Assembly: GCA_016291135.1 (NCBI GenBank)
Contig: JAEFAE010000002.1
Span: 1-64,000 of the forward strand
Reading direction: 5' to 3'
Source of the DNA: Bacteroidales bacterium
GTDB lineage: Bacteria > Bacteroidota > Bacteroidia > Bacteroidales > F082
DNA: 64,000 nucleotides
A program made the translations under genes and the position numbers. The notes under the pieces are model-generated. The model did not search any database and was not told the origin of the DNA. It saw only the letters and a list, made by a program, of their open reading frames with translations. Positions 35,724 through 55,354 of the stretch are shown here, piece by piece. Position 1 is the stretch's first letter. Every line of letters starts with the position of its first letter.

Positions 35724-35754
35724 AGCGGAAAGTGAACGTGGAAAGAGGAAAGTG
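35724..35754 (+). repeat. GTGGAAA-type repeat at the start of the CotH gene
   Basis: The tract agcggaaagtgaacgtgg continues with aaagaggaaagtg and overlaps the only plausible start codons (GTG 35732 or 35738). It is the same low-complexity motif found inside several genes downstream. Confidence 0.6.
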
Positions 35755-37591
35755 GATCGTACTCTTTGGGTTATTCATCCTTGTACCGTTTTTTGGTACA
35801 AGCCAAAGCGCCGAGAAGGTTTTGTTCTCGGTACCCGGAGGCTTTTATGAGGAGTCTCCCGTGCTGACGCTTTCCACCGTCTATCCGCAGCATCACATCC
35901 GTTTCACCACTAATGGCAACCGTCCAACAGTACAGTCCCGGTGTTACACCGAGCCGTTGCTGTTGGACAGTTGTCTTTATTCTACCTCAGACATTTACAC
36001 GATACGGATCACCCCAAGGGGAGAGATGTTCTATCCCGACAGCGTGCGTCATTGCATCGTGATCCGTGCGGCAGTGTTCGATGAAAACGACAGCTGCGTC
36101 AGCGAAGTAGCCACCAACAGCTATTTCATTCAAGCCCTGGGGTGCGACACGCACGGTCTGCCCGTCATGTCGCTTTGTGCCGATTCGTTGGATTTATTCG
36201 ACTTTTGGCGGGGAATCCTGGTGCCTGGTGCTTACTATAACCCTAATATTCCTGATTGGACCGGCAATTACTTCTGCAAAGGAATCTTGTGGGAACGGCC
36301 CTGCAATGTGGAGTTTTACGAAAGAAACGCTCATTACCTTAATAGTGGCATCAACCAGCTGGCTGGCGTTCGCACTCACGGAGGTGCCTCCAGGCGTTTT
36401 CAGCAGAAGGGATTGAAAATCTTTGCAAGGGAAGATTATGGTGAGAAACGTTTCAAGCATCGCTTTTTCGACGAAATTCCATTAGCAACATTCAAGCATC
36501 TGACGCTGAAACCTTTCAGATGTGATAACTGGGGACACGTTGGTGTTCAAGACCAACTGGCCAGTCGCTTGGCGCACGATCTCGGACTTGAGAGCCTTGC
36601 CTCCCGACAGACGGTACTTTTCCTCAATGGTGAGTATTGGGGTATCTATGCCCTGACGGAAGTCCCTGACGAGCGTTACCTTGAGGATCATTTTAATGCG
36701 GATTTGGAGCAGATCAACATCATGAAGAAGTGGACCCAGCTTGAACATGGCGACAGCACCCAATGGCTCGAGTTATACCAATGGATGGAAACGGCCGATC
36801 TCACCAATCCGTCGAGCTACGATCAAGCGGCTTCATATCTTGATTTGGACAATTTTATGGACTATCAGATCTTTGAAATCTATTCCGGCAATCTTGATTG
36901 GCCCGCTAATAACGTGCGTTGCTGGCAAGAAGGGCAAGGCAAATGGCGGTGGTTTTTCTATGACGGCGACGGTTGTTTTGTAGAGGATTGGGATGTTTTT
37001 GCCAATGCTATTGACACCAGCGACAACATCAACCCTTCCAACGCCCGCGCCACCTTGTTTTTCCGAAAGCTGATCCAACAGCCACTTTTTATGGATCGTT
37101 TCAAACACCGTTTTCAAGAATTGATGACCCATCAGTGGCGTTATGAAACCCTCGCTCCGCTTTTTCAATCGCTTTGTGCCACGCTTGCCGGAGAGGTGCC
37201 TTTCCAAGCCGAACGTTTTGGGTTCCCCATAGACTTCGATCAATGGGAATCCGATGTCGCCGCTGAGGACGATCGGTTGTTCCATTGGAACGAACAGATG
37301 TCTTTACGGCTTGCGTCGTTTCTCTCTGAGCATGCCTTGCTGGAGACCACTTTGGTGGAAGCAATCCGATGCGTGCCCAATCCTTCGAAGGGGCCTTTTG
37401 ATTTCATCGTCACCACGACATCCGAAGGGGTTGCTTCCATGCTCTTGTTTGATGCGACTGGCTGTCAGGTGTTTCATCAGCCGGTGGATTTGAAACCCGG
37501 TGTCAATCACATCCCCATGAATAGATCTTTCGCTCCTGGCCTCTATATACTCAAAATCGGCGGATCTACCCTTAAAATCATCCAACAATGA
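35732..37591 (+). CDS. CotH-kinase-like secreted protein with T9SS sorting domain
   Basis: A protein of about 619 residues, beginning at a GTG that lies inside a GTGGAAA-type repeat. A signal peptide follows ('LFGLFILVPFFGTSQ'). Residues about 25-130 look like a chitobiase C-terminal (Ig-like) domain. The middle is a CotH kinase-like domain ('GVRTHGGASRRF', 'KPFRCDNW', 'YWGIYALTEVPDERYL', 'FFYDGDGCF'). The last 75 residues are a T9SS sorting domain (from 'CVPNPSKGPF'). CotH kinases phosphorylate spore-coat proteins; the target here is unknown. The stop overlaps the next ATG (ATGA). Confidence 0.8.
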   Translation: MNVERGKWIVLFGLFILVPFFGTSQSAEKVLFSVPGGFYEESPVLTLSTVYPQHHIRFTTNGNRPTVQSRCYTEPLLLDSCLYSTSDIYTIRITPRGEMFYPDSVRHCIVIRAAVFDENDSCVSEVATNSYFIQALGCDTHGLPVMSLCADSLDLFDFWRGILVPGAYYNPNIPDWTGNYFCKGILWERPCNVEFYERNAHYLNSGINQLAGVRTHGGASRRFQQKGLKIFAREDYGEKRFKHRFFDEIPLATFKHLTLKPFRCDNWGHVGVQDQLASRLAHDLGLESLASRQTVLFLNGEYWGIYALTEVPDERYLEDHFNADLEQINIMKKWTQLEHGDSTQWLELYQWMETADLTNPSSYDQAASYLDLDNFMDYQIFEIYSGNLDWPANNVRCWQEGQGKWRWFFYDGDGCFVEDWDVFANAIDTSDNINPSNARATLFFRKLIQQPLFMDRFKHRFQELMTHQWRYETLAPLFQSLCATLAGEVPFQAERFGFPIDFDQWESDVAAEDDRLFHWNEQMSLRLASFLSEHALLETTLVEAIRCVPNPSKGPFDFIVTTTSEGVASMLLFDATGCQVFHQPVDLKPGVNHIPMNRSFAPGLYILKIGGSTLKIIQQ

Positions 37592-39570
37592 AACGACGTA
37601 CTCCCTTAATTTTGGCTATCGCCTTGGTATCGCTGGCCGCTGCCTTTTTCATCCGTCAAGGCGTCAACTGCCACTTCCGTCCCATGACCAACTTCAAGGC
37701 CGGGCGCACGGTATGCCTCGACATGGATCTGGAGAATGCCGTCACCGATGGCATCTATCTCCCTTCCGCAAAACAGACCGAAAAGGGGGAAGGTGTTTTC
37801 AGTTTTCGCTTTATCGCCCCGAAAAAAGGCTGGTATTACAAGATCTATTACCAGAACGAGAGTTATAAATTCGCCGACACAAGTGCGCTCTCCGGCGAGA
37901 ATTTCTATGGTAGCTGGGAAGATGTCAGCGTGGGTTTCAAACCCATCGGGCGCTGGGTGGTGCGGGATTCGCTCCGCATTGTGGGCAACCCCCGCGACGA
38001 ACGTCGTTTTTATGGCGCCGACTTGAGCGAAAACAGCTTTAGCAAAGAGCATGTATCCAAAGTGATACAGAGCATCCGCAACCAGGAGCAGTGGTACAAC
38101 AGCATCGTCGAGAAGGCGGAACGCAATGGCGTCAGCGTTGAAGAACAGCTCTACCGCGACGCCCTATGGGTGATCAGCGGCAGCCGCAACGACGGCGACT
38201 GCAACCACCGCTGGAAACGCAATCCTCGAGTGGGTCGCTACAGCTTCCTGTTGGTGCTCTGCGATGAGGAAGGACTCAACGAGATCCCCGACTATATCCA
38301 ACATATCGGCAACACCGATGAAAACGGTACTTTTATCAACCCTTACGGCTGGTTCGAGACGCATCCTTCCAAGCATATCAAGACGGTAAAGAGTGGCCGC
38401 CAGCTGAAAACCCGCGCGGTCATCACCCCACGCCAAGGGGTGTTTGTTGATGAGGCCAACGTCCACAGCCAAGGCTACGAGCCCGATACGACCTGCCTGA
38501 GCTGTGGCATCAACGATGCGCTATACCAACATGCGCTTTTTGAGCAGTTCTTCAGCTCGGTCAGCCAGCAATACACCCTCCGTAACATTCCCGTTATCCA
38601 GGATGTGGTGGGGGAGGACCCCTACACCCGTGCCGACTACGAAGCCAATAAGACCAAATACGATTCTGCTCAGCTGCATTGGGATTATCCCGTGGTCTCC
38701 AAGACGCCCTGCCAGACGGTGCAGGTGGCCGATGACGGCAGCTATATTACGTTGATCAACCCAGGCAACGACGACCTCAACGACCTTCATAAGGAATCTA
38801 CGGGCATCCGTACCCGCGTGGGCTTCACCTACGGTAAGTTCACCGGCAAGATCAAGTTCCCCGTGATGCTCAACGACGAGAACGTGTGGAACGGCCTGAC
38901 CTATGCCTTCTGGCTGATTTATAGCGACAACCACGCATGGAACAACCGCCGTCACGATGAGGCCGAAGGCGGCTATGTCGATAAGAACGACGACTCCGAA
39001 ACCCCGGTTCGTCACCCAGACTATCATTATTCCGAAATCGATATCGAGATCGTGAAGGCCTCCAAGTTCTGGCCCAAGAACTATTATGGCCACCGTGCCG
39101 ACAGCATTTGCGTGGAAGAAGACGCCACGTTGAACGACGATGTGATGTATTGCTGCACCAACTGGGACCTGGCCGTGCCTTCGCCGAAGTACTTCAAGGC
39201 AGGCATCGACTCCATCCCCTACGGCAAGGACCATAAGTTCGAGACCTTGCGGTGGTACAAGCTCTATAAGGCGTTGACCGAACGCGCCCCGATGAGTAAC
39301 AACGACTTCAAAGCGCCCTGGTATTACTATGAGATCGAATGGCGACCCACCGAGATCATTTGGCGCCTCGGTCCCGACCCGAAGCACATGCGGGTGATGG
39401 GCTACATGAACGACCAATACACCAGCATTCCGAACAACCAAATGAAAGCCATTGTCACCCAGGAATATCATTACTCTGAATGGTGGCCGCCCATTGTCTG
39501 GGAACAGGGATTGATCCCCTATAACAAGACGGATATTGAGGGCCGTGTTTACGAAATAGTCATTGAATAA
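37588..39570 (+). CDS. GH16-like glycan-active membrane-anchored protein
   Basis: A 660-residue protein with an N-terminal signal anchor (about 7-25). The C-terminal half resembles a GH16 jelly roll. It has 'GKFTGKIKFP', 'GLTYAFWLIY', the catalytic-type 'EIDIE' with both Glu, and 'YYEIEWRPTEIIWRLG', as in beta-glucanases. So it may cut or re-join a polysaccharide. The N-terminal half is unassigned but holds a helical motif (about 155-195, 'NQEQWYNSIVEKAERNG') that also ends the AlgJ-like proteins in this locus. The start overlaps the CotH stop by four bases. Activity is inferred from the motif. Confidence 0.6.
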   Translation: MKRRTPLILAIALVSLAAAFFIRQGVNCHFRPMTNFKAGRTVCLDMDLENAVTDGIYLPSAKQTEKGEGVFSFRFIAPKKGWYYKIYYQNESYKFADTSALSGENFYGSWEDVSVGFKPIGRWVVRDSLRIVGNPRDERRFYGADLSENSFSKEHVSKVIQSIRNQEQWYNSIVEKAERNGVSVEEQLYRDALWVISGSRNDGDCNHRWKRNPRVGRYSFLLVLCDEEGLNEIPDYIQHIGNTDENGTFINPYGWFETHPSKHIKTVKSGRQLKTRAVITPRQGVFVDEANVHSQGYEPDTTCLSCGINDALYQHALFEQFFSSVSQQYTLRNIPVIQDVVGEDPYTRADYEANKTKYDSAQLHWDYPVVSKTPCQTVQVADDGSYITLINPGNDDLNDLHKESTGIRTRVGFTYGKFTGKIKFPVMLNDENVWNGLTYAFWLIYSDNHAWNNRRHDEAEGGYVDKNDDSETPVRHPDYHYSEIDIEIVKASKFWPKNYYGHRADSICVEEDATLNDDVMYCCTNWDLAVPSPKYFKAGIDSIPYGKDHKFETLRWYKLYKALTERAPMSNNDFKAPWYYYEIEWRPTEIIWRLGPDPKHMRVMGYMNDQYTSIPNNQMKAIVTQEYHYSEWWPPIVWEQGLIPYNKTDIEGRVYEIVIE

Positions 39571-39587: not shown

Positions 39588-41150
39588 ATGGTTTATAAAG
39601 CCTATTCCAAACGCGACACGACCATCATCAAAGGCTTTGCGATTCTTTGCATTGTCTTGCACAACTATTTCCATTGGCTGACCCCCATGCCGGGGGAGAA
39701 TGAGTTCGATTTCTCTCCACTAAGGGTACAAAAACTGTTCGATTTATTGGGTCAATATCCTGGCGAATTCATCAATATATTGTTGAGTTATTTCGGTCAT
39801 TTCGGGGTGCAGCTGTTCCTGTTGGTCAGCGGTTTCGGCTTGGCTTTTTCCATGTTGAGGCGAGAACGCTCTTGGGGGGTGTTCATGCTGGAGCGTCTCA
39901 AAAAGCTCTATCCGCTGCTGATCGTCGGCGTGTTGGTCTGTTTTCTCGGCTGCATCTTGATGAATGGCAGGATGTTCGTCAAGGAGGAATGGAGGGAGAT
40001 CGGCTATAAACTGCTTTTCATCCAAACACTGTTGCCCGAATCCGGCACCAGTTTCAACGGTCCTTGGTGGTTTTTTTGCTTGATCTTCCAACTTTATCTG
40101 CTGTTTCCTCTGCTGTTCCGTTGTATCAGAAAATGGCATTGGAAGGCCTTCTTGGTCCTGTTGGTGATTTCATACGGGTTGATCTTCCTGTTCCGGTATG
40201 GTTTGGACTTGTATCATGGGACGATTGTGATGCAGAATGCGCCAGGACACCTGCCAGAGTTTGCTTTAGGAATCCTGTTGGCTTTTTCCAAGGACAAAAA
40301 GATCCATTGGCTGTGGCTGGTGCTGGCATTGGGGGTGTTTGTCGGTGGCAACTTCATTGAGGTGTTGTACCCCTTCACATTTCTCTCGCTTTGTGTCTTT
40401 ACTGTGTTTGCCTATCAAGGCCTGAAGCATCTGAAGCATCGAAAGCTTTCCACGCTCCACTTCTCACTTTTCAATTATTTTGGCGGTATCTCCATGATGT
40501 TGTTCGTGGTACACGGCTATTTCAGGGGACCTGTTCTGAAGTTGGGCAACACGATGACGAGTGCGTGGGGGCATTTGGCTTCCGGGCTCATGTATTTCCT
40601 ATTGGTGTGGGGCATCGCCTTGGCGGCGAAACCCTTGTATGATTTTGTCGAGGCGCGACTGGATCGGATCCATGGGCGTGAAAACCGTTTCACCAAAATC
40701 TTGCAAACAGTCTTTCAGGTAGCATTTGTGTTGTTTTTCCTCTATGTCGGTTGCTATTATATCCGTCAAAATCTGGCAAAGCATCCCGCTACACCGTTGA
40801 TAACATCATTATATGTGGAGCAGGGGCAAATTGTCGTTGACGACAAGTTCGTGTCGTTGGCTAAGTTCCCTTTGGAGAAAAACCATCTTGTGTTGCATGT
40901 CGAAGGCGAATTTGAGCTTGAAAAAGGGGTGGTGCCTCCGTACCTGGTAGTGGACATCCGGGATGTGTTGTGGAAAACCATGACGCTGTATCCTTCCCCC
41001 GATGGCGAATGGATTCATTATACCTTCAAGTACGACTATTATCGTCCTTTTGTCAATTCCATCAACGAGAAGGATCTCAAGATCTATTTCTGGAATCGCG
41101 ACCAAAATGCGATGCGGTTTCGTAATTTTACTATTTTTGCAAATTATTAA
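39588..41150 (+). CDS. Acyltransferase family 3 with C-terminal sandwich domain
   Basis: A 520-residue membrane O-acyltransferase of the OafA/YrhL type. The N-terminus has the conserved 'KGFAILCIVLHNYFHW' (His in the first helix) and 'GVQLFLLVSGFGLAFS', followed by about ten helices. It normally moves acetyl or another acyl group across the membrane to a surface sugar. The last 110 residues form an added soluble domain ('WIHYTFKYDYYRPF', 'LKIYFWNRDQNAMRF') that resembles the ends of the two LtaS-like proteins downstream. A GTGGAAA-type tract is embedded at 40441-40473. Confidence 0.8.
   Translation: MVYKAYSKRDTTIIKGFAILCIVLHNYFHWLTPMPGENEFDFSPLRVQKLFDLLGQYPGEFINILLSYFGHFGVQLFLLVSGFGLAFSMLRRERSWGVFMLERLKKLYPLLIVGVLVCFLGCILMNGRMFVKEEWREIGYKLLFIQTLLPESGTSFNGPWWFFCLIFQLYLLFPLLFRCIRKWHWKAFLVLLVISYGLIFLFRYGLDLYHGTIVMQNAPGHLPEFALGILLAFSKDKKIHWLWLVLALGVFVGGNFIEVLYPFTFLSLCVFTVFAYQGLKHLKHRKLSTLHFSLFNYFGGISMMLFVVHGYFRGPVLKLGNTMTSAWGHLASGLMYFLLVWGIALAAKPLYDFVEARLDRIHGRENRFTKILQTVFQVAFVLFFLYVGCYYIRQNLAKHPATPLITSLYVEQGQIVVDDKFVSLAKFPLEKNHLVLHVEGEFELEKGVVPPYLVVDIRDVLWKTMTLYPSPDGEWIHYTFKYDYYRPFVNSINEKDLKIYFWNRDQNAMRFRNFTIFANY
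40441..40473 (+). repeat. TTTCCAC-type tract inside the acyltransferase gene
   Basis: The tract gaaagctttccacgctcc and following acttctcacttttc encodes 'RKLSTLHFSLF' in a loop between helices. It shares TTCCACGCTCCACTT with the element at 43072-43137. Confidence 0.6.
41132..41139 (+). promoter_or_regulatory. -7 promoter box before MBOAT 1
   Basis: TATTTTTG lies at the very end of the acyltransferase gene, 24 bases before the ATG at 41164. It may give the downstream acyl/phosphotransferase genes their own start point. Confidence 0.4.
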
Positions 41151-41163
41151 TATATAATAAAAC

Positions 41164-42579
41164 ATGGTATTCAGCAGCAACGTCTTTTTGCTTTATTTCT
41201 TGCCACTGTTTCTGCTGTGCTACTTCGTCTGTCCGCAAAGGTTCAGGAATTATGTCATTCTGGTCTTCTCCATCATCTTCTATGCCTGGGGCGGGCCCGA
41301 GTTCATCCTGATCTTGCTGGGATCCACCATCGCGACGTATTTCATCGTCAAGGCGATGTGCAAGACGGATAAGTCATCGGCAAAGAAATGGCTTTGTGCT
41401 GCTGCCATCACCTTGAATCTGGGGTTGTTGGTGTGGTTCAAATACGCCAACTTCTTGGTGGATAACGTCAACGCTCTTGTAGCGCTTTTCCACGGTCATG
41501 GCATTCAACTGGCCAAAGTCGTGCTGCCCATAGGCATTTCTTTCTTCACCTTCCAGTCCATCACCTACGTGTTAGACTCCTACCGGGGTCAGGTGAAACC
41601 CATGGACAAGCTGACGGACTACATCGTCTATATCATGATGTTTCCGCAGCTGATTGCGGGTCCCATCGTGCGGTATGGTGATGTGGAACAGCAACTCAGG
41701 CATCGTGAGAGTCCGCCGTCGGAACGCTTGCAGGGCTTCTATCGGTTTGTCATCGGCCTTGCCAAGAAAGTATTGATAGCTGACGTCATCGCCAAGCAGG
41801 CGGATGTCTATTTCGCCTCCGACCTCAGCACCATGGACATGGGCACAGCTTGGATCGGCATTTTGGCCTATACCATGCAGCTGTATTTCGACTTCTCGGG
41901 CTATTCCGACATGGCTATCGGTCTGGGACGGATCATGGGATTCAAGTTCCCCGAGAACTTCGACAATCCCTATACCAGCAAGAGCATCACTGAATTTTGG
42001 CGCCGGTGGCATATCACGCTGGGTACATTCATCAAAGGCTATCTGTACATCCCCTTGGGTGGCAACCGAAGGGGTACGGCCCGCACCTATTTCAACCTCT
42101 GGGTCTGTTTCCTGCTTTCGGGCCTGTGGCACGGTGCCGCTTGGAACTTCGTGCTTTGGGGCGCGTTCCACGGCTTTTTCATCGTGCTGGAGAAGTTGTT
42201 GAGTGGCAAACGGAAAGATTTCCATTTCCCACTTTCCACGCTGGTCACGTTCATCCTCGTCATGATCGGCTGGGTGTTGTTCCGCGCGGATAACATCAGT
42301 CACGCCTTCGACTACTACAAGGCCATGTTCTCGTTCAACTTCGAGGGCTTCAGCTGGAACGGTGATAGCCAGTTCTACACCACGCTCATCCTCGCTGTGG
42401 TCTTCTCCTTCTTGACGTTATTCCCCTTCGGTCGAAAGATCGAGCAGGTGGTGTTCTATAAGAACTATGGCGCCTGGGGTCATGTGGCAGCTTGGGTGGT
42501 GTCCGTCGCCTTGTTGATCTTCAGTATCGGAGCGCTGAACGCCACAGGTTTCAGTCCATTCATCTATTTCAGATTCTAA
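41164..42579 (+). CDS. MBOAT O-acyltransferase 1 (AlgI/DltB-like)
   Basis: A 471-residue polytopic membrane protein of the AlgI/PatA type. The N-terminus 'MVFSSNVFLLYFLPLFLLCY' and the signature 'FWRRWHITLGTF...YIPLGGNRRG' are typical. The catalytic His lies in 'GLWHGAAWNFVLWG' (His323). MBOATs pass acyl groups across the membrane to a periplasmic SGNH partner that acylates a polymer; several AlgJ-like candidates are encoded nearby. It is closely similar to MBOAT 2 and 3 of this window. The first LtaS-like gene starts four bases after its stop. Confidence 0.92.
   Translation: MVFSSNVFLLYFLPLFLLCYFVCPQRFRNYVILVFSIIFYAWGGPEFILILLGSTIATYFIVKAMCKTDKSSAKKWLCAAAITLNLGLLVWFKYANFLVDNVNALVALFHGHGIQLAKVVLPIGISFFTFQSITYVLDSYRGQVKPMDKLTDYIVYIMMFPQLIAGPIVRYGDVEQQLRHRESPPSERLQGFYRFVIGLAKKVLIADVIAKQADVYFASDLSTMDMGTAWIGILAYTMQLYFDFSGYSDMAIGLGRIMGFKFPENFDNPYTSKSITEFWRRWHITLGTFIKGYLYIPLGGNRRGTARTYFNLWVCFLLSGLWHGAAWNFVLWGAFHGFFIVLEKLLSGKRKDFHFPLSTLVTFILVMIGWVLFRADNISHAFDYYKAMFSFNFEGFSWNGDSQFYTTLILAVVFSFLTLFPFGRKIEQVVFYKNYGAWGHVAAWVVSVALLIFSIGALNATGFSPFIYFRF
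42211..42240 (+). repeat. TTTCCAC-type tract inside MBOAT 1
   Basis: The tract cggaaagatttccatttc continues with ccactttccacg and encodes 'RKDFHFPLST' in a loop before a conserved helix. The same loop of MBOAT 2 and 3 carries longer tracts. Confidence 0.55.
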
Positions 42580-42583
42580 GGCT

Positions 42584-45067
42584 ATGGGCAATCATAAAAC
42601 AAACCGCTTTTCACCTTCGGCCCTTCGTCCTTTTTTAGCGTTCCTCTTTTGGATGCTGGTCTTCGGCTTTGCTGTCCGACTTTTTGAGGCGGCTTTGCTG
42701 GGCTATTACCAGGAGCAGTTTTGGAAGCAACTCGCCCTGTGTTTGAAGGGTTTCTGTTACGATGTGTTGTTTTTCAGCAAACTCGCGCTTATCCTCTGCC
42801 CCCTGTATCTGTTGATCCATCGTTTTTCGAGAAAGGCCGCCCGATGGACCTTTTGCATCATCGGCACCATGATGTTGCTGATTTCCAATGCAATGATTAT
42901 GTACTACATCTCGGCGATGATGCCTTTGGACAAAGTCTTTTTCGACTATTCGGTGAAAGAGCTGATCTATATTTCCCAATCCACCGGCGCTTTCGTCTGG
43001 TGGGGCTACGTCGGCCTCTTGCTCATCCCCGCCTTGTTTTTCATCGTCTATGGCATCCTCAAAAAAGAACCCTTTCCACTTTACCTCCCTTCGGTCGGTG
43101 AGGGCTTACGCCGTTCCACGCTCCACTTTCCACTTTATCTTTGGCTCGCCCTTGCCCTTCTCGGTCTCTTTGTCTGGGACGTTCCCGTTTGGGCTTATAG
43201 CAACCGTGAAGGCAAGAACACCATCTGTAACAAGCAGGAGTTCTTCTGGAAAAGCCTGATCCGGACCGAGGCGCCTTTCTCACGTTTCGACCCGAAGGAC
43301 TTGGAACAACAGCGCGACCGCATACAGACCTTCCAATCTTTCTTCCCTGAGGACGAGTTTGTGGATTACCGTTATCCGTTTGCCCATGTTGACCATTCGC
43401 CCGATGTGCTCTCGCAGTATTTCGATTTGAATCCCGATACGATGCCGAATCTGGTGTTCATCATCACCGAGGGGCTAAGCCGTGAGTTCAGCGGTCCGAA
43501 CAGCAAATTCCCTTCGGCCACTCCCTTCCTCGATTCGCTGGCCGACCACAGCCTTTCGTGGCTTAACTGCATGTCGTCGTCGCAACGTACCATCGCCGTG
43601 CTGCCTAGCCTGTTCGGCAGCCTGCCCTTTGGCAAACGGGGCTTCATGCAGTCGCCCGACTGTCCCCGTTTTTACTCTTTGCCCGGCATCTTGAAGGACA
43701 ATGGCTATGAGACTTCTTTCTTCTATGGCGGCTGGACCTGTTTCGACGATATGTGCTATTTCCTGAACGATATGGGTATCGACCATTATCTGCCGGAATA
43801 CACCAGCTATCCTCAAGAGATGCAAAACACCTGGGGCCTCTACGACGAATACCTCTTCTCCGAATCCCTCAAAGAAAGGAACCTTTCACCTTTCACCTCT
43901 CACCTCTCACCTCATCTCGATATCTACCTCACCTTGTCCACCCACGATCCCTTTGACTACCCCGACAAAGCACGTTACACGAAGATCTATACCGACAAGT
44001 TGATCCAAAACCACAAACAGCATAACATCGAACAATTCCAGTATGAGCAATACGCCTCTTATCTCTATTACGACGACTGTTTGAGGAAGTTCTTCGACGC
44101 ATATCGTCAGCTGCCCGGTTTTGAAAACACAATCTTCATCATCACCGGCGACCATTGCTTCAACGGCAAGTCGGAGGAACTTGACAAATATCATGTGCCT
44201 TTTGTTATCTGGTCGCCCATGCTCAAGGAAGCACATCGTTTTCCAGCCATAATTTCCCATCGCGACGTGACCCCTTCGTTCTTGGCCATGATGAAACAGG
44301 TTTACGGCATCCAGTCGCCCTCTGTGGTGAGTTGGCTTAATACAGGCTTGGACACGTGTTCTCACTTCCGGTCGAACACTTTTACGCCTCAGCTGAAAAA
44401 CTCCCGCAAAATGGACAATATGGTCTATAAGGACTATTATTACGACGAGGGGATGGTGTTCAAGTTTGGTTTTGAGGATGACAAACTGACGATCACTCCG
44501 GTCAACAACGAAGCGATGCTGAATTTTGTGAAAGAATACAAAGCCATGGATGACTATGTGATGCGGAACGACGCCTTGGTGAAACTGGATGAGGACAAAC
44601 AGCAGCTGCTGGTGTCTGTTGACAGCACCCAGAGCGTGAATCACGTGCTTCTTAACAGCTATACAAGGCCGATCGACACCTTGGATCATCACAATTGTTT
44701 TGTGTTCAACGGAATCTATCCATTCACCTTGTTCAGCGAAGTCCTGGACGACACCCTTCAGTCGGTGGTGGTGTATTGTAGTTTCGATATCTTCATTCCC
44801 CGCGGAGATGATAAAGAGAAAATCGCTTTGGGCTTTTCCATCGACCGTTTGGATGGACGGCGGGAACTGCTGAAGACGCTGGTGATCAACTACGATTGGT
44901 ATGAGTATTACGATCAATGGCAGCATTACTCTTTGACGCAAACCTTTAACCGCGCTCAGTTGAAATATCTGACAGGGGAGAAGCTGATGGCCTATTTTGG
45001 AAATGGCGGCGAGCGCACCTTTGTTTTGTCGGATTTTAATCTTAAAGTGGTGGGGATCAATGAATAA
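42584..45067 (+). CDS. LtaS-like phosphotransferase (sulfatase fold) 1
   Basis: An 827-residue membrane enzyme of the alkaline phosphatase/sulfatase superfamily, closest in layout to lipoteichoic acid synthase and OpgB. Five N-terminal helices (to about 215) precede the periplasmic domain. That domain shows 'NLVFIITEGLSREF' (metal Glu), 'SSQRTIAVLPSLFG' (probable Thr nucleophile) and 'IITGDHCFNG' (metal Asp/His). It may transfer glycerophosphate or phosphoethanolamine to a glycan. A C-terminal sandwich-like region (about 680-827) resembles those of its neighbours. Two repeat tracts are embedded in it. The start of LtaS-like 2 overlaps its stop. Confidence 0.8.
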   Translation: MGNHKTNRFSPSALRPFLAFLFWMLVFGFAVRLFEAALLGYYQEQFWKQLALCLKGFCYDVLFFSKLALILCPLYLLIHRFSRKAARWTFCIIGTMMLLISNAMIMYYISAMMPLDKVFFDYSVKELIYISQSTGAFVWWGYVGLLLIPALFFIVYGILKKEPFPLYLPSVGEGLRRSTLHFPLYLWLALALLGLFVWDVPVWAYSNREGKNTICNKQEFFWKSLIRTEAPFSRFDPKDLEQQRDRIQTFQSFFPEDEFVDYRYPFAHVDHSPDVLSQYFDLNPDTMPNLVFIITEGLSREFSGPNSKFPSATPFLDSLADHSLSWLNCMSSSQRTIAVLPSLFGSLPFGKRGFMQSPDCPRFYSLPGILKDNGYETSFFYGGWTCFDDMCYFLNDMGIDHYLPEYTSYPQEMQNTWGLYDEYLFSESLKERNLSPFTSHLSPHLDIYLTLSTHDPFDYPDKARYTKIYTDKLIQNHKQHNIEQFQYEQYASYLYYDDCLRKFFDAYRQLPGFENTIFIITGDHCFNGKSEELDKYHVPFVIWSPMLKEAHRFPAIISHRDVTPSFLAMMKQVYGIQSPSVVSWLNTGLDTCSHFRSNTFTPQLKNSRKMDNMVYKDYYYDEGMVFKFGFEDDKLTITPVNNEAMLNFVKEYKAMDDYVMRNDALVKLDEDKQQLLVSVDSTQSVNHVLLNSYTRPIDTLDHHNCFVFNGIYPFTLFSEVLDDTLQSVVVYCSFDIFIPRGDDKEKIALGFSIDRLDGRRELLKTLVINYDWYEYYDQWQHYSLTQTFNRAQLKYLTGEKLMAYFGNGGERTFVLSDFNLKVVGINE
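43072..43137 (+). repeat. Composite intragenic repeat element in LtaS-like 1
   Basis: CTTTCCACTTTACCTCCC followed by TTCGGTCGGTGAG matches the reverse complement of the two 47-base units at 60800-60893 in the U32 gene, with a single extra base there. TTTCCAC repeats flank it on both sides. It encodes 'FPLYLPSVGEGLRRSTLHF' in a loop between membrane helices. Confidence 0.85.
43881..43913 (+). repeat. CTTTCACC-type tract in LtaS-like 1
   Basis: Copies of acctttcacc and acctctcacc in tandem encode 'LSPFTSHLSPHL' within the periplasmic domain. The same tract on the other strand occurs in MBOAT 3 at 55121-55153. Confidence 0.7.
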
Positions 45068-47567
45068 CAAAAAATCTTTATCTATCGCACTGGCTCAATG
45101 GCTTCGTCTGAATGCCTTGTTGCTGCTGTGCATGATCGCAGTCCGTCCCCTTTTCTTTTTGGAGGTCTATTTCAGGGTAGGATTGGCTCCCATTCATTTT
45201 TTCACCATCCTTTCTGGAGCCATCTACGATCTTCTGCTGGTCTGCCGGATCTTCGCCTATGGCCTGATCCCTTTCCTGGTCTTGCATGCTTTCTTCCCTA
45301 AGACGGCTCGGGGCATCTTCATCGGCTTGATCGTATTTTATGCGGTGGTGTCGGCGTTGCTTGCCGAGTATTACTGCAACCTCACCATGCCGCTTGACCA
45401 TGTGATTTTGATGTATTCCTATCAAGATCTAAAAACCACATTGAGTTCTTCTGCCACCTTGTCGATCGGTCAGGTGATCTGGTTTTTGTTGCAGGTGGGA
45501 GTGCCGGTGGGAATCGTGGTGTGGAGTAGAAAGTGGGGAGTGAAAAGTGGAAAGAGGAGAGAGAAAAGTGGAAAGTCTTCTGTTCTACGAGGTGTTTTGG
45601 CGGTGCTAATCGTTGCTGTTGGGTTGTTGGTGCCTTACAACCGCATGATCCGGGAGGAGCGGCTATATCCTGCCCATTATGACTTCTGTCTGGCCGTGAA
45701 CCAGCCCAGTTATTCGTATATCAAGATCGCCGATTATCTGAGGAACGAGGTGTTTCGTGACGTTTTCGAAGACAGTGACTTGTTTGATGAGCACCTGAAA
45801 GAGGCAGTGGCGGCCTATCATGCTGTCCATCCTGAGTTCGAGTACGACTATCCGGATTATCCGTTTTACCGCAAGGCCACCGATCCCGATGTACTCAGTC
45901 CATTCCTCCGTCAGACCTCAGATGGCTTGCCGCCTAATTTGGTCTTCATCATCGTGGAAGGATTGGGACGCCGTTTGACGGCGGTGTGGGAACCCGTCTT
46001 GTCGTTCACGCCTTTCATCGACAGTCTGGCATCAGAAGGACTGTTCTGGCCGCAATGTCTCTCCACTGCGGAACGCACCTTCGCCGTGTTGCCTTCGGTA
46101 TTTGCCTCCGCTCCCCATGGCCGATATGGTTTTTGCACGACCCTGAGTCAGACGCCACGCCACCACTCCCTGCTCCGCGACTTGGAGCGGAACGGATACT
46201 ACTCTTCCTTCTATTATGGCGGCGAACTCACTTTCGACCACTACGATTTCTTCCTGCAGGCGAACCACGTGGACTACCTGTTCAGTCCTTCCATCGTGGT
46301 GGAGGACACCGCAAAGTCTCGTTTGCTGACCGAAAACCACCGATGGGGCCTCGATGATGATCAGCTGGTGGAGCTGGCCATCGCTCAAAAACGTCAGGAC
46401 ACCGTGACAAGGCGGCCTTTTGTGGATATGTATCTGACGCTTAGCACCCACGAGCCTTTTGTGGTGGATGACTTGGAGCATTATGAGGAACTAGCAAGGC
46501 AAAGGGTTGAAAGCACGCCCAATGTGACCGACCAGGAACGCAGCAATGTGATGAAAAACCTCAACATCTTCGCCTGTTACCTCTATATGGACGAATGCAT
46601 CCGCAACTTGTTCGCTTACTATGCCTCCCGACCTGATTTCGAGAACACCTTGTTTGTCCTTACTGGCGACCATAGGATGGCTTATTTGCCTTTTGGAAGC
46701 TCCATCCGCAAATACAACGTGCCGCTGGTGATCTACTCGCCGCTGCTGTCCCGTTCAAAGCGGATGGAAGCAGTGGTCTCGCATCTCGACATCACCCCCT
46801 CGCTCAATGCCTATCTTCACGCCAACTACAACTATGCCATTGACGACCATTGCCACTGGCTAGGCACCTCGTTCGACACCGTCTCGGAATTCCGCAATAC
46901 CCGCAAACTCGCGTTCATGCTCAACAACCGTGATGTGGTGGATTATTGTAGCGGTAATCATATCCTCAGTAATCAAAAACTGTTTCAACTGGATTCCCGT
47001 CTGGTGGAAACCAAGGATGATAACGAGAATCTGTGCAAACTCCTAATGAACGAGCTGGACAACTTCGATTTGATCAGCCGCTTTGTAGTGAAGGAAGACC
47101 TCCTGCTTCCGCGAGGTGACCAATCCAATCTCTACTCCTGTCTCTTGGACTTCGACCACAACTCCATGAGTGTCTTCGATAAATACCTGGTCAAAGACAG
47201 CGCCTTCCTGCGTGTGGGCAAGGAGGTGGAGTATTTCTCCCTGTGCTCAAATCTGGCCGTCTTGCCGATCTATGAGGATCTGTTGGTGGAGGTGTCGTTT
47301 GACATCCGGAGTGTGGACACAAGTCTCACTTTGCCCGCTCTGCGCGTCGCCTTGGGTGATGCCTACGCACAACGGAATCTCTCCGAAGTGAACGGATTGA
47401 ACACTGGTAAGTGGGAGCATTACCATGCCCGAATCCCGATGGAGGTGATCCATCAGACAGAAACCCAGGCGCTGAAACTGGTCTTGTGGAAGAAGAACTC
47501 GAGTTCGTTTGAACTGGACAACCTCGTGGTGAATGTGGAGGCTTCGTTGAGGCAGAAGGATCAATAG
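45060..47567 (+). CDS. LtaS-like phosphotransferase (sulfatase fold) 2
   Basis: An 835-residue homologue of the preceding enzyme. I start at ATG 45060, which overlaps the previous stop by 8 bases (ATGAATAA); the track start at 44997 adds 21 residues of overlap. Membrane helices occupy the first 215 residues. The catalytic domain shows 'NLVFIIVEGLGRRL', 'STAERTFAVLPSVF' and 'VLTGDHRMA'. The C-terminal region ('GKWEHYHARIPMEV', 'LKLVLWKKNSSSFELDNL') resembles that of the acyltransferase. Two such enzymes side by side suggest priming and extension, or two substrates. The stop overlaps the convergent GDPD-like gene by 7 bases. Confidence 0.8.
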   Translation: MNNKKSLSIALAQWLRLNALLLLCMIAVRPLFFLEVYFRVGLAPIHFFTILSGAIYDLLLVCRIFAYGLIPFLVLHAFFPKTARGIFIGLIVFYAVVSALLAEYYCNLTMPLDHVILMYSYQDLKTTLSSSATLSIGQVIWFLLQVGVPVGIVVWSRKWGVKSGKRREKSGKSSVLRGVLAVLIVAVGLLVPYNRMIREERLYPAHYDFCLAVNQPSYSYIKIADYLRNEVFRDVFEDSDLFDEHLKEAVAAYHAVHPEFEYDYPDYPFYRKATDPDVLSPFLRQTSDGLPPNLVFIIVEGLGRRLTAVWEPVLSFTPFIDSLASEGLFWPQCLSTAERTFAVLPSVFASAPHGRYGFCTTLSQTPRHHSLLRDLERNGYYSSFYYGGELTFDHYDFFLQANHVDYLFSPSIVVEDTAKSRLLTENHRWGLDDDQLVELAIAQKRQDTVTRRPFVDMYLTLSTHEPFVVDDLEHYEELARQRVESTPNVTDQERSNVMKNLNIFACYLYMDECIRNLFAYYASRPDFENTLFVLTGDHRMAYLPFGSSIRKYNVPLVIYSPLLSRSKRMEAVVSHLDITPSLNAYLHANYNYAIDDHCHWLGTSFDTVSEFRNTRKLAFMLNNRDVVDYCSGNHILSNQKLFQLDSRLVETKDDNENLCKLLMNELDNFDLISRFVVKEDLLLPRGDQSNLYSCLLDFDHNSMSVFDKYLVKDSAFLRVGKEVEYFSLCSNLAVLPIYEDLLVEVSFDIRSVDTSLTLPALRVALGDAYAQRNLSEVNGLNTGKWEHYHARIPMEVIHQTETQALKLVLWKKNSSSFELDNLVVNVEASLRQKDQ
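45521..45576 (+). repeat. GTGGAAA-type array in LtaS-like 2
   Basis: Tandem variants of AAAAGTGG and GAGGAGAG span 56 bases and encode 'SRKWGVKSGKRREKSGKSS', a strongly basic loop after the fourth helix. The tract is A/G-only for most of its length, unlike the surrounding codons. Confidence 0.75.
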
Positions 47568-48262
47568 TGGCTGTTGGGAACCAGTAGGACATCCACCAAG
47601 GTGTCGCTGCCGATCTTATCCCTCAGTCTGGCTTGATAGTGTGCGTGTGTATTGAGGGTCCACAGTAGCTTGCGTTGTTCGGGGAACTCCCTTTTCATGA
47701 AGTCATACTGGTAGTCATATCCCGAAAGATGGGTCACCCCGCTGAGGATCGCACGTTGGATCTTTTCCACATATTGTTGGTATTGTATGGAATCGACGGT
47801 TTCCGGGTCGAAAGGAGGGATATAATAGCTGTCTTGGAAGCCTGCCTTCCGGAAGGACGGAAGCGCGTCGTAAGCGGTGCTTTCAACGATCAACATGCCT
47901 TGAAGCTCGTATTTGTCCCTGAGGTCCGTAAGGCACCGCAGGGCAGACTCGCAGTTCAGGGAGCTCAGGTTTTTGAAGTCGAACCAGATGCCAAGTCTGG
48001 AGATCTGATCCAAGGCTCCGCACCACTGATCGAGCGTGAGGGTTGTGGTATCATTGACGTCGTGTTTGACCAAGAACATGTTCAACGAGTCGATGTAACA
48101 CACATCGATTTCCAATCCGCTGTATTGGCCTTGGAAAAATTGTGCTTTTTCGATGCTGTTGGCCCTATGGAGCCACACTTGAAGGTTGGTCGCTGTATTT
48201 TCCCTTGGCTTGCAGGCTGTTGCGATGAAAAGGATCGTTATGTATAGTAGCGTTTTTTTCAT
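47561..48262 (-). CDS. GDPD/menorin-like lipoprotein
   Basis: A 233-residue lipoprotein. The start at 48262 gives a lipobox (IATAC at about 13-17); the track start adds 14 residues. The fold looks like the TIM barrel of glycerophosphodiester phosphodiesterases or FAM151/menorin. It has 'VWLHRANSIEKA' (His), 'GLEIDVCY' (Glu and Asp) and 'FLVKHDVN' (His), the usual catalytic set. A role in cutting a glycerophosphate polymer would fit the LtaS-like genes that converge on it. It is the last gene of the minus-strand run. Activity is inferred. Confidence 0.6.
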   Translation of the reverse strand: MKKTLLYITILFIATACKPRENTATNLQVWLHRANSIEKAQFFQGQYSGLEIDVCYIDSLNMFLVKHDVNDTTTLTLDQWCGALDQISRLGIWFDFKNLSSLNCESALRCLTDLRDKYELQGMLIVESTAYDALPSFRKAGFQDSYYIPPFDPETVDSIQYQQYVEKIQRAILSGVTHLSGYDYQYDFMKREFPEQRKLLWTLNTHAHYQARLRDKIGSDTLVDVLLVPNSHY

Positions 48263-48269
48263 AGTGCGT

Positions 48270-49793
48270 TCAATTGGATTTGAGATGCTGCCTCCATTCC
48301 GCATCTTGGATCATGACGGTTTCCAGGTCGAGATGCCGTTCCTTTGCCTTCTTTTCCAGGCTTTCCCGCCATTGTTGGTTGGTATGCATGTAACGCAGCG
48401 TGATTCCGATGGGATCTTCAGGATCGGTCATCCTGAGCATGGTGTTGCGGGTGGAGGGATGGTTTTCAGCCAACGCGGGGAAATAGCGTTCCGGATTCGA
48501 ATACAACACATATTCAGCTTCGCTATGTAGGACTTGATCCAAGGATTTGCCTTGTTCGGCGGCTTTTTTCTCGATAGCGGCCATCCAGTCGTCCGTGTTG
48601 TTGATGTTCTCGATGACCTTCTGAAGGACACGGTTGACTTCCTGTTTGTTGTAGCACAGATTCACCAACGCCTGGCAAGAGAAGAGGTTGCTCATGGAAT
48701 ACAAGTTGACCGTGCAAAACGAAATCATCACAAAGTCTGTGTTGGTAAGCTGCTCGATCAGGCTGAAGTCGGCCGTTTTTTGATATTGCGGGTCGTAATA
48801 CACACTGTTGTTGTAATACCAGAAAGGATGCCGGCTGAAAAGGCTGTCGAGAGGAATATGGTAGGCGATGTTCCAGAAATAAGAGTCGCCGATAGTGATG
48901 ATAGCGGGCTTCCGAAAGGCGGTGTCGTTTGCGATATGGAAGTCGGCGTATTGGTTCGGGATCTCGCGTATGGACCGTGAGAGGTTGAGCAGTTTCTCCA
49001 GATCGTCATCGGGCCGCATGGTGGTATCGTACAAGGTCTGGCTGATCTCCAGTTGTGGTAGTTCGGTGTCTCCAAGCCATTCCATGTATCGCAGAATGGA
49101 ATCGGTGACGTGTAAGGCGGCAAGGTTGGACCAATGGGTGCCCAGTTGTGGATAGAGGGCATAGCCGACGCTGTCCTTGATCTGTTGGAACCAACGGTCG
49201 AGGTTGATATAGTTCACACCGATGCTGTCGAACAATACGGGATAGAGGTCGGCGGCGGTCAGGTGGTTTTCCTGCTTTCGGATCTTGTCGGGCAGATACT
49301 CCGGATAAACACGGGCTTTGCTGGGCTCGATGACGACAAATAGATGTTTTCCGTATTCGGCTAGAATCTCCTGCACCTTTCGGAGCCGGGTGGCCTCTAA
49401 AACGAGTTTGGGCCGGAGTTGCTCAACACTATCTATATAATTATATTGATATTCCCCACAATAGTCCTCTATAACCGCCGTATTGTACAGATAATTCTCC
49501 TTTCCAATGGTGATAGATTGCACGTTGGTTTTTTTGTAACAATCCCAAAGATATTGGTTGTAGTACCGTATAAGGCATTCGCGGAAGCCGAAATTTTCGC
49601 GGAGATATTGTTCCAGATCGTTCTGATAGTTTCCTGTGACACAGTTTTTCATTGTCAGCGCGGGAAATTCCGTCTTCTCGGTAACACCGTTAAGCGGTTT
49701 GAGTTTGAAAAGGGGCCAATGCTCTTGTACGAAAAACAGAAGGAGACAGCCGATCGTCAACAGACATAGTATATGACACAATCCTTTTTTCAT
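48270..49793 (-). CDS. AlgJ/AlgX-like SGNH protein 1
   Basis: A 507-residue protein with one N-terminal membrane anchor. The family hallmarks are 'NFGFRECLIRYYNQYLW', 'VIEPSKARVYPEYLP', 'LGTHWSNLAAL' (catalytic His with the HW motif) and 'TIGDSYFWN' (catalytic Ser). Such proteins take an acyl group from an MBOAT and place it on a periplasmic polysaccharide. It differs from its five neighbours in carrying two copies of the C-terminal helical motif ('NTDDWMAAIEKKAAEQG' and 'NQQWRESLEKKAKERH'). The gene starts 5 bases after the stop of AlgJ-like 2. Confidence 0.82.
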   Translation of the reverse strand: MKKGLCHILCLLTIGCLLLFFVQEHWPLFKLKPLNGVTEKTEFPALTMKNCVTGNYQNDLEQYLRENFGFRECLIRYYNQYLWDCYKKTNVQSITIGKENYLYNTAVIEDYCGEYQYNYIDSVEQLRPKLVLEATRLRKVQEILAEYGKHLFVVIEPSKARVYPEYLPDKIRKQENHLTAADLYPVLFDSIGVNYINLDRWFQQIKDSVGYALYPQLGTHWSNLAALHVTDSILRYMEWLGDTELPQLEISQTLYDTTMRPDDDLEKLLNLSRSIREIPNQYADFHIANDTAFRKPAIITIGDSYFWNIAYHIPLDSLFSRHPFWYYNNSVYYDPQYQKTADFSLIEQLTNTDFVMISFCTVNLYSMSNLFSCQALVNLCYNKQEVNRVLQKVIENINNTDDWMAAIEKKAAEQGKSLDQVLHSEAEYVLYSNPERYFPALAENHPSTRNTMLRMTDPEDPIGITLRYMHTNQQWRESLEKKAKERHLDLETVMIQDAEWRQHLKSN

Positions 49794-49798
49794 CTGCG

Positions 49799-51148
49799 TT
49801 ATCGGACAAATCCTTTGGGTTCAATGTTCATTCGGTAGGTATAGTCGGCGTTGTCCCAGAGTGACTGTTCGAGGCTGATGCCTTTTTCCTCCGCTTGTTT
49901 CTCGACACTTTCAATCCATTCGGGAGAGGCCTTGATATTGTCTATGATCCGTTGGATCTCACTGTTTCGATAATCGAGATACAGGCGGTCGGCTTCATCG
50001 TAGTCCGCTTCCGTTTTCCATCGAAACTCGTTGTCATAGCCGCTCAGATAGCGTTCAATGAAACCATAGGGCCACAAGTGGTTGGTGGCCTCGGTGCAGA
50101 CCAGCAGCACAAACTCCTGGTTTTCAATCTCTTTTTTGTAGTCGAGGGCATCCACTTGTTGGACGGGATCCCTTTCAGGATAGACGGTCTTGTTGTAAAA
50201 CCAAAAACCGCCGTCAGTGAAGAGATGCTGCGGCAGGGCTACATTCCAGGCCCATACCGTCCACCAGTAAGAGTCAGCGATAGCCAGGACCCTTGGCCGG
50301 TAACCTTCGGTGAAGTTGAAATGCGGGTTGTCAATCGTGTTGTGTGGCAGCGGCAACAGGATGTTCATCATCCGGTAGAGATCGTCATCTTGGTTCATCA
50401 GGCCGTCGTTATCGAAACTTTCGATATAGGAATGGACCTGCGTCTGTTGACTTTTCGTCTCCATGTACCGCACCAGTGAGTCCAGGGCCAGGGAAGCCGC
50501 ATAAACAGTCCAATGGGCACTCAAGTCGCAATACACGGGATGGTCGAATTGGTCTTTTCGTTCACAGAAGTACCGATTAAAGTCAATCCAATCGACCGAT
50601 TGATCCTGAAACGCTTTCTGGTATTGTTGGTAGTTGTTGGTCTCCCTTCCCCGGTGGAGGTACTTTTCGGGAATCAGTTCGGGATAGTAGGAAGCCTTGC
50701 CCACTGTGAAAACAGGCAAAAGGGTGATGCCTTTGGTTCGGAGCATCTCCTGGATGAGTTTGATTTGCCGGGTCTTGTTGACGATTTGTTCTTCGCCGAT
50801 ATAGGTCTCTCCTGTATAGCTGATGATATAGGACTCTTCGATGAAGGTCTTTCCGTTGTTGCCTTTCACCGGCCCTATGGCCGATATTTTCCCAAAGGCG
50901 GAATACAACAATTGGTTATTAAGACGGATCATCGTCTTTCTGAACCCGGATTGTTCCGTACACCAGGTCATCAACGAATCTTGGGCGGTTTCATGGAACA
51001 GGGTCTTCAGCGTGATTACAGGTTTCGGAGTCTCCACGAAGGCACCATCCAACGGCTTTTCGTCCACAAAATGGAACACGGCCTGTAGCATGGGCAGCAA
51101 CAGCAGCACGAGAAACAGCGCAAATCCTATTTTCTTGAGTCTTTCCAT
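49799..51148 (-). CDS. AlgJ/AlgX-like SGNH protein 2 (variant active site)
   Basis: A 449-residue paralogue with the same anchor and 'QSGFRKTMIRLNNQLLY' start. The active-site blocks differ from the others: 'DLSAHWTVYAA' replaces GTHWS, and 'AIADSYWWTVW' replaces GDSYF. The Gly before Asp-Ser is therefore lost, though His, Asp and Ser remain. It could have a changed acceptor or be a binding-only AlgX-like partner. It ends with the NPEW motif ('SPEWIESVEKQAEEKG'). The start overlaps the MBOAT 2 stop as TGATG, so the two are probably a working pair. Confidence 0.8.
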   Translation of the reverse strand: MERLKKIGFALFLVLLLLPMLQAVFHFVDEKPLDGAFVETPKPVITLKTLFHETAQDSLMTWCTEQSGFRKTMIRLNNQLLYSAFGKISAIGPVKGNNGKTFIEESYIISYTGETYIGEEQIVNKTRQIKLIQEMLRTKGITLLPVFTVGKASYYPELIPEKYLHRGRETNNYQQYQKAFQDQSVDWIDFNRYFCERKDQFDHPVYCDLSAHWTVYAASLALDSLVRYMETKSQQTQVHSYIESFDNDGLMNQDDDLYRMMNILLPLPHNTIDNPHFNFTEGYRPRVLAIADSYWWTVWAWNVALPQHLFTDGGFWFYNKTVYPERDPVQQVDALDYKKEIENQEFVLLVCTEATNHLWPYGFIERYLSGYDNEFRWKTEADYDEADRLYLDYRNSEIQRIIDNIKASPEWIESVEKQAEEKGISLEQSLWDNADYTYRMNIEPKGFVR

Positions 51149-52593
51149 CAGAACCTAAAATATATGAAGGGGTTGAAACTGCCTTTGAGGATGAAAGAAG
51201 CGGAGAGTATCAGCAGGACGACCATCAGCAGGCTGACGAGCGCATATTGTCTAGGCCGATAGGCCTTTTTGTTGAAGAAGAAATCCAGGGTTTTTTGTCC
51301 CGCTTGGGTCATCCCGAAGAAGGAGAAGAAGGCGGCGATGACCAAAGTGGTGACAAACTGCGGGTTGCAGAAGGCCACAGGGTTGTTGCCGTGGAAGCCG
51401 AACAGGGTGCCAAGATACTGGATGGCATAGCCAAGCGTGTCGGCGCGGAAGAACACCCAGCCGATCATGACTAGGAAGAAGGTAAGGAGCGTGGAGAATG
51501 GGGAGTGAAGCGTAGATAGTTTTCCGTTTTCCACCTTTCGCTTCCCTTTTAACAATTTGTCCAGACAGATGAAGATGCCGTGGTAGGCGCCCCAGACCAC
51601 AAAGTTCCAGGAGGCACCGTGCCAGAGCCCCGACAGGAAGAAGACGATCCAGAGGTTGAGATAGGTTCTGCCCCGGCCTTTGCGGTTACCTCCCAGCGGG
51701 ATGTATAGATAATCCATCATCCAGTTGCCTAGGGTGATGTGCCAGCGTTTCCAGAACTCGGTGATGCTTTTGCTGATATAGGGACAGTTGAAGTTTTCCG
51801 GGAACTTGAAGCCAATCATCCGTCCGATACCGATGGCCATGTCGGAATACCCCGAGAAGTCGAAATAGATCTGGAAGGTGTAGGCAAGGATGCCCAACCA
51901 AGCGGTCCCCACCCCGATTTCGGTGGCGGGCTGGGCAAACACCTGATCGACATATTCTGCCATAATGTTGGCAATCAACATCTTCTTCGAGAGTCCGATA
52001 ATAAAACGGTACATGCCAAGCAGCTTGTTGTCAATGGTCTCGTTGGCTTGCCTGTCAACCAGTTGCTCGGCGACTTCGTTGTAGCGCACGATGGGTCCCG
52101 CGATCAGTTGCGGGAAAAGCATGATGAACAGCGCGTAGTCAGCGATGTTGTCCAACGAGGCTGCCGTCTTTCGATAGACGTCGATGCTACAGCTCATTTT
52201 CTGGAACGTAAAGAAGGAGATGCCGATGGGCAGTACCACCTTGGTCCATCTCACAGGGCTGCTTCCAAAGACGGCTAGCAGACTGTTGAAGTTCTCGATG
52301 AAGAAATTGGCGTATTTAAAATAGGCCAGCAACCCGATGTTCAAGACCACGGACAGCAGCAAAAACAACTTGCGTCGTTTGGGATCTTCGCTTTTGCTGA
52401 TCTGACGGACCAGAAAGTAGTCGATCAGGATGGAAAGCAGCAACACTATCAAGAACCTGGGTGATCCAAATCCGTAGAACACCAGGCTCGCCAGCAGCGC
52501 AATCCCGTTTTTGTATTTCCTGTCAGCAAGGAAATACAGCACCAAGAACAGGGGCAGGAAATAAAACAAGAAGATGCTGCTACTGAATACCAT
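51148..52593 (-). CDS. MBOAT O-acyltransferase 2 (AlgI/DltB-like)
   Basis: A 481-residue membrane acyltransferase. Signatures are 'MVFSSSIFLFYFLPLFLVLY', 'EFWKRWHITLGNWMMDYLYI' and 'GLWHGASWNFVVWG' with the catalytic His. It is about ten residues longer than the other two because of a repeat tract in one loop ('KRKVENGKLSTLHSPFST'). It is coupled to AlgJ-like 2 by a TGATG overlap and has a possible promoter inside the end of AlgJ-like 3. Confidence 0.92.
   Translation of the reverse strand: MVFSSSIFLFYFLPLFLVLYFLADRKYKNGIALLASLVFYGFGSPRFLIVLLLSILIDYFLVRQISKSEDPKRRKLFLLLSVVLNIGLLAYFKYANFFIENFNSLLAVFGSSPVRWTKVVLPIGISFFTFQKMSCSIDVYRKTAASLDNIADYALFIMLFPQLIAGPIVRYNEVAEQLVDRQANETIDNKLLGMYRFIIGLSKKMLIANIMAEYVDQVFAQPATEIGVGTAWLGILAYTFQIYFDFSGYSDMAIGIGRMIGFKFPENFNCPYISKSITEFWKRWHITLGNWMMDYLYIPLGGNRKGRGRTYLNLWIVFFLSGLWHGASWNFVVWGAYHGIFICLDKLLKGKRKVENGKLSTLHSPFSTLLTFFLVMIGWVFFRADTLGYAIQYLGTLFGFHGNNPVAFCNPQFVTTLVIAAFFSFFGMTQAGQKTLDFFFNKKAYRPRQYALVSLLMVVLLILSASFILKGSFNPFIYFRF
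51489..51549 (-). repeat. GTGGAAA/TTTCC tract inside MBOAT 2
   Basis: The tract runs from gcgtggagaatggggagtga to agttttccgttttccacc and cgcttccctttt. It shares AGTTTTCCGTTTTCC with MBOAT 3 and the U32 gene. It adds residues to a loop that is shorter in the other MBOATs, so it is a true length change in the protein. Confidence 0.75.
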
Positions 52594-52607
52594 GTTTCGT
52601 GTATTGT

Positions 52608-53930: not shown

Positions 53931-53933
53931 GGA

Positions 53934-55352: not shown

Positions 55353-55354
55353 GG

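Follow-up and report, generated by a model that had tools for sequence, protein, structure and literature searches.

A small module shared by AlgJ-like proteins and a GH16-like protein of Bacteroidales as a candidate docking tag of envelope-glycan enzymes

Introduction

The described systems closest to the locus of this work are the MBOAT-SGNH pairs PatA-PatB, DltB-DltD and AlgI-AlgJ, which resemble its MBOATs and AlgJ-like proteins. Elsewhere, acyl transfer by such pairs works without the module that we describe here; the module is an addition, which counts against a docking role. In AlgX, which acts in the acetylation of alginate in Pseudomonas, an SGNH domain of the AlgJ/AlgX family is followed on its C-terminal side by a non-catalytic domain, an arrangement found also in our AlgJ-like carriers, and the setting is polymer acylation (PMC4148444). 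The C-terminal domain of AlgX is a CBM, whereas the present module has about 45 residues, is predicted to be helical, occurs in tandem and is found on other carriers as well. Dockerin-cohesin and CBM-type modules are small and removable, occur on different enzymes and gather them on a scaffold or on a substrate. Dockerins differ from our module in their calcium-binding repeat: no such repeat is seen in the module consensus, and a test against the Pfam dockerin family gave no match. AlgF, an interaction mediator of alginate acetylation, has the role that is proposed here for the module, to keep acylation enzymes together on the outer side of the cytoplasmic membrane (PMC10641220). AlgF, made of two beta-sandwiches, is a protein in its own right, while the present unit is an appended, predicted-helical module.

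Results

Organization of the locus

The window is the whole stretch of DNA that was analysed, 64,000 nucleotides in length (positions 1-64,000, forward strand, of contig JAEFAE010000002.1, assembly GCA_016291135.1, Bacteroidales bacterium). The features of the locus are listed below; the module copies were located by profile search.

35732-37591, protein of the CotH kinase family with a weak match to the T9SS tail model
37588..39570, plus strand, GH16-like protein of 660 aa, with the module between the N-terminal region and the GH16-like region
38047..38190, plus strand, module copy of the GH16-like protein
39588..41150, plus strand, acyltransferase-3 (PF01757), a neighbour without the module
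41164..42579, plus strand, MBOAT (PF03062), C-terminal end FIYFRF
42584..47567, plus strand, two sulfatase-superfamily membrane proteins (PF00884) without the module
48270..49793, minus strand, AlgJ-like protein 1 (SGNH, PF16822) with two tandem C-terminal modules
48489..48629, minus strand, module copy 1 of AlgJ-like protein 1
48273..48416, minus strand, module copy 2 of AlgJ-like protein 1
49799..51148, minus strand, AlgJ-like protein 2 (PF16822)
49820..49960, minus strand, module copy of AlgJ-like protein 2
51148..52593, minus strand, MBOAT, C-terminal end FIYFRF
52608..53930, minus strand, AlgJ-like protein 3 (PF16822)
52626..52769, minus strand, module copy of AlgJ-like protein 3
53934..55352, minus strand, MBOAT, C-terminal end FIYFRF
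55355..56704, minus strand, AlgJ-like protein 4 (PF16822)
55385..55528, minus strand, module copy of AlgJ-like protein 4
56701..58026, minus strand, AlgJ-like protein 5 (PF16822 just under the cut-off)
56704..56847, minus strand, module copy of AlgJ-like protein 5
58023..59411, minus strand, AlgJ-like protein 6 (PF16822), start set at the ATG of MKKEQTTL
58098..58241, minus strand, module copy of AlgJ-like protein 6

Against PF16822 (ALGX), five of the six AlgJ-like proteins score over the 26.5-bit cut-off and the sixth reaches 24.4 bits. Among PDB sequences, the AlgJ-like profile matches the solved AlgJ 4o8v at 5e-9, and its matches to solved AlgJ/AlgX chains are confined to the SGNH part. 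The SGNH Ser and His are invariant (59 of 59 AlgJ-like rows), but 51 of the 59 have G, S, A or N where the DxH motif has its Asp. At this position the six window proteins (48270-59411) all have G, S or A, and they lack the complete Ser-His-Asp triad. Because the DxH Asp is missing, we name these proteins AlgJ-like and not AlgJ. The GH16-like protein scores 20.6 bits against Pfam GH16 (cut-off 22); among 14 homologues, four reach E<=0.01 (3.6e-5 for the best), and PDB sequences searched with the GH16-like profile gave no match. Its E483-I-D485-I-E487 has the form ExDxE, with E, D and E invariant in 14 and in 40 homologues; ExDxE or ExDxxE is the catalytic motif of GH16.

All three MBOATs of the window (41164-42579, 51148-52593 and 53934-55352) terminate in FIYFRF, which fits FXYXXF, the acyl-shuttle motif of bacterial MBOATs (PMC12148441). 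The sulfatase-superfamily pair (42584-47567) is polytopic with an LTA-synthase-like layout, and its members are possible phosphoglycerol or phosphoethanolamine transferases. Between the sulfatase-like and the AlgJ-like genes, 47561-48304 encodes a small lipoprotein-like protein that matches Menorin weakly. The content of the locus (three MBOATs, the AlgJ-like proteins, the acyltransferase-3, two sulfatase-superfamily proteins and the GH16-like protein) would fit, as a whole, a pathway that adds acyl and perhaps phosphate-linked groups to a surface polysaccharide, judging from these families and from work on MBOAT-SGNH systems (PMC12148441, PMC4148444, PMC10641220).

Sequence of the module

The sequence-only reading of this DNA had proposed that the six AlgJ-like proteins and the GH16-like protein hold a common block, and the profile comparison bears this out. 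An HMM built from the seven AlgJ-like copies, with the GH16 copy excluded, matches that copy with 36 bits (i-E 1e-10), and it still does so without the second tandem copy (i-E 1e-9). Used as a single-sequence query, the GH16 copy matches five of the six AlgJ-like proteins at E 2e-6 to 2e-3, while over forty rounds of shuffled ORFs the score of the module HMM stayed at 9 bits or below. There are eight copies, as had been counted: seven in the six AlgJ-like proteins (with a tandem pair in 48270-49793) and one in the GH16-like protein. In the whole 2.62-Mb assembly (83% complete) these eight copies, all in this locus, are the only matches at E<=10.

The description of the block had to be revised on two points. 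The literal N-x-x-W formula given for every copy matches three copies only; it is too strict because N, S or T may stand at the first position and because the GH16 copy is longer by one residue, and a profile is the right description. The conserved unit extends over about 45 residues and not 35. Over 468 aligned copies (292 non-redundant) the consensus is I..II..I[RK][NS][DN]PeW...I..KA....[GN]iS.[ED]..L..DA.[WYF], with conservation of W16 (84%), A24 (94%), A39 (92%), I/M at position 10 (94%), W/Y/F at 41 (94%), D/N/E at 38 (96%) and E/D at 32 (91%). Three segments show a peak of hydrophobic periodicity at 90-110 degrees, and helix-capping signatures are seen before the second helix ([DNST]-P) and before the third (S/T-x-x-E). 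The module is therefore likely a helical mini-domain, probably of three short helices.

No Pfam family was matched by more than two of 36 module copies, and none of these matches was credible. NCBIfam gave no match at the module position of the host proteins, and the module profile found among PDB sequences only designed repeat proteins and short helical fragments, nothing credible. No description of the module was found in the literature searched. The module, previously unnamed, thus appears undescribed in these sources.

Distribution and carriers

The survey profile for the genome samples was a module alignment of 36 rows and 48 columns. It found the module in 66 of 80 genomes of the genus, in 123 of 393 genomes of the order sample (Bacteroidales) and in 96 of 395 genomes of a class-wide sample, mostly of other orders; a draw from the phylum gave none in 197 genomes. 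A restriction of the module to one order, which the last draw had suggested, is ruled out by about 94 carrier genomes of other orders. The module is patchy within Bacteroidia.

Sixty fetched regions of the sampled genomes hold 80 carriers: 54 AlgJ-like (one of which is really a 282-aa lipoprotein with a weak AlgJ match, L106:9671-10516), 14 GH16-like and 12 polytopic proteins. In AlgJ-like carriers the module is C-terminal, with one to four tandem copies; in GH16-like carriers it is an internal insertion about 455 residues before the C-terminus; and in polytopic carriers, part of which match PMT_2/PMT, GT-C type glycosyltransferases, it ends 16 or fewer residues from the C-terminus. A CotH protein (L316:12081-14060; PF08757, E 4e-55) has a C-terminal module, and a further set of regions gave an SGNH-like carrier without a Pfam match. 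Two lipoproteins of 139 and 144 aa (L316:4806-5237 and L317:4894-5310) consist of a lipobox and two modules, with little else. The module had been thought to link two enzyme classes; it is not so limited, being found also on polytopic, CotH, SGNH-like and lipoprotein carriers. Nor does the HMM match at random among unrelated proteins; in the AlgJ-like, GH16-like and polytopic classes the position of the module is fixed. The small lipoproteins L316:4806-5237, L317:4894-5310 and L106:9671-10516, each with two modules, adjoin module-bearing enzymes.

The carriers are clustered. Another carrier lies within 10 kb for 27 of 65 carriers, compared with about 0.4 expected (order genomes with at least two carriers, among the matches listed, which miss weak hits). 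One tightly packed apparent operon (L316:4806-10893) runs lipoprotein, MBOAT, AlgJ-like protein, polytopic protein, AlgJ-like protein, the last three with the module. Most of 80 named GH16 loci, mainly from rumen or gut Bacteroidales metagenome assemblies, have module-bearing AlgJ-like genes and MBOATs nearby. The module is not confined to MBOAT loci: an MBOAT lies in the fetched flank of 46 of 53 AlgJ-like carriers, but of only 6 of 14 GH16-like and 3 of 12 polytopic ones. The genome of the window has a second MBOAT with two AlgX-type DHHW proteins (L058:3189-7071), and this set is without the module; therefore, partners of MBOATs do not require it in general.

Natural loss of the module

Two orthologues of the GH16-like protein (L211 and L215, which share 66-68% identity with the window protein) are missing precisely the module through a clean deletion, so that RIVGNPRDE and RWxRNPRVG are nearly joined. 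Since both sit inside a module-bearing clade, the module was lost, in one or two events. In the genome of L211 (G666) no module was found at E<=1, with stop codons read through in the search. This genome keeps the GH16-like protein and three AlgJ-like proteins, with their catalytic domains. One of the three, 64% identical to AlgJ-like protein 6, stops shortly behind its SGNH part; in the other two the post-module linker (NPNRYIPAL and PEDYFPDL) is still there, with a short remnant in place of the module. The nearest homologues of all three are module-bearing. Four proteins of G666 have thus lost the module, by visibly different changes.

The genome of L215 (G667, the same as G624) has one AlgJ without the module and one with it. 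The module is absent from four of five AlgJ-like proteins where the GH16-like protein has lost it, compared with 6 of 144 where the GH16-like protein keeps it (Fisher p 5e-5, an optimistic value as the sequences are related). In the complete genome G009, which has neither module nor GH16-like protein, the single AlgJ ends before the module position and its best relatives have the module. Concerted loss is clear in one genome (G666) and partial in G667 and G009, and the related genomes are not independent cases. The GH16-like protein is absent from all 14 module-free genomes of the genus, and AlgJ-like proteins are absent too in nine of the ten checked. AlgJ-like relatives without the module occur in genomes that keep modules elsewhere (L165:20153-21367 and L045:1019-2317), so single losses also occur.

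Discussion

These data directly support the homology of the copies, the autonomy of the module, its presence in several host families, its genomic clustering and its concerted loss. The module is autonomous because it is found inserted, terminal, in tandem, standing alone and cleanly removable. We regard it as a new family of appended targeting modules and not as a new kind of system. Its placements vary, its hosts are unrelated proteins of one process and its loss is joint, which argues for a tag for something outside each host. The concerted loss in at least one genome suggests that the module tethers enzymes to one common target. Our preferred reading, which we hold to be only narrowly probable, is that the module is an autonomous helical docking tag that would act outside the cytoplasm and bring different envelope-glycan enzymes to one shared partner, a polymer or an export or assembly protein. 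That the module is helical, lies on the extracytoplasmic side and binds a partner, and what this partner is, we infer from sequence.

In mechanistic terms, the module of about 45 residues, predicted to be helical, would sit outside the cytoplasm on envelope-glycan enzymes. The shared partner may be either the surface polymer on which these enzymes act or an export or assembly protein that they have in common. At the window locus, the module would tie all six AlgJ-like acyl-transfer proteins, together with the GH16-like protein, to one polymer or machine. The suggestion of a common partner dates from the first reading. It gains from a module that is autonomous, tandem, present on unrelated neighbouring envelope proteins and lost in concert; the docking itself, and whether the partner is protein or polymer, we infer. 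No gene that tracks the module was found. The CotH protein (35732-37591) was considered, as it lies upstream of the GH16-like gene in close relatives and is missing from the module-less loci L211 and L215; as a general partner it is rejected, being absent from many module-bearing genomes.

An unlikely alternative to the docking tag is that the modules bind each other, which would make a complex of the carriers with the two-module lipoproteins as bridges. Such homotypic assembly draws on the module-only lipoproteins that adjoin module-bearing enzymes and on the tandem copies, and concerted loss fits it equally well. However, nine of 17 tested genomes with the GH16-like protein hold one module only, in that protein, where self-pairing is what remains; so the module need not pair with the module of another protein. 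A single carrier is found in many genomes, and incomplete assembly is unlikely to account for every one. Module-module pairing between different proteins is thus less likely than a common protein or polymer.

Still less probable is that the module stabilises each host by itself, as a structural cap or spacer, with no partner in trans. The module does lie C-terminal to the catalytic part in AlgJ-like and polytopic carriers, and its helix caps and hydrophobic pattern suggest a stable mini-fold. Such a cap would be hard to reconcile with hosts of unrelated folds, with internal insertion and with lipoproteins of almost nothing else; it also leaves aside the clean loss from otherwise conserved proteins, and the joint loss from every carrier of one genome. 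A signal for sorting or export, like the C-terminal domains of type IX secretion, is very improbable. The mostly C-terminal position in AlgJ-like, polytopic and CotH carriers would suit it, but the module is internal in GH16-like proteins, occurs in tandem and is carried by polytopic membrane proteins, for which secretion is impossible. A signal or anchor of their own is present in the hosts, and the known T9SS tail model has no match to the module, although the same model weakly matches the neighbouring CotH protein. Chance similarity of short amphipathic helices, to which the short helical unit and the low per-domain bits of the matched designed helical proteins might point, is hardly credible given the reciprocal matches (1e-10 to 1e-6), the shuffles at 9 bits or below, the absence from 197 genomes of one draw, the W, A, DA and W/Y that hardly vary among 292 non-redundant copies, and the fixed position in each class.

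For the docking tag, a wider role is possible though not probable, and we put it forward tentatively: the module may be a general docking code of Bacteroidia envelopes, which gathers a polysaccharide-making and -decorating assembly round one receptor or polymer in the manner of cohesin and dockerin in cellulosomes. Its hosts would then be acyltransferases, glycosyltransferases, the GH16-type enzyme, CotH proteins and the module-only lipoproteins.

The module is a sequence marker for Bacteroidia envelope enzymes that act together, many of which now lack a named domain, and a shared module can assign enzymes to the same surface-polymer pathway. The natural module-less orthologues can serve directly as controls. 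A protein partner would be the missing organiser of polymer acylation in Bacteroidia; if the partner is the polymer, the module would be a new and very small glycan-binding fold.
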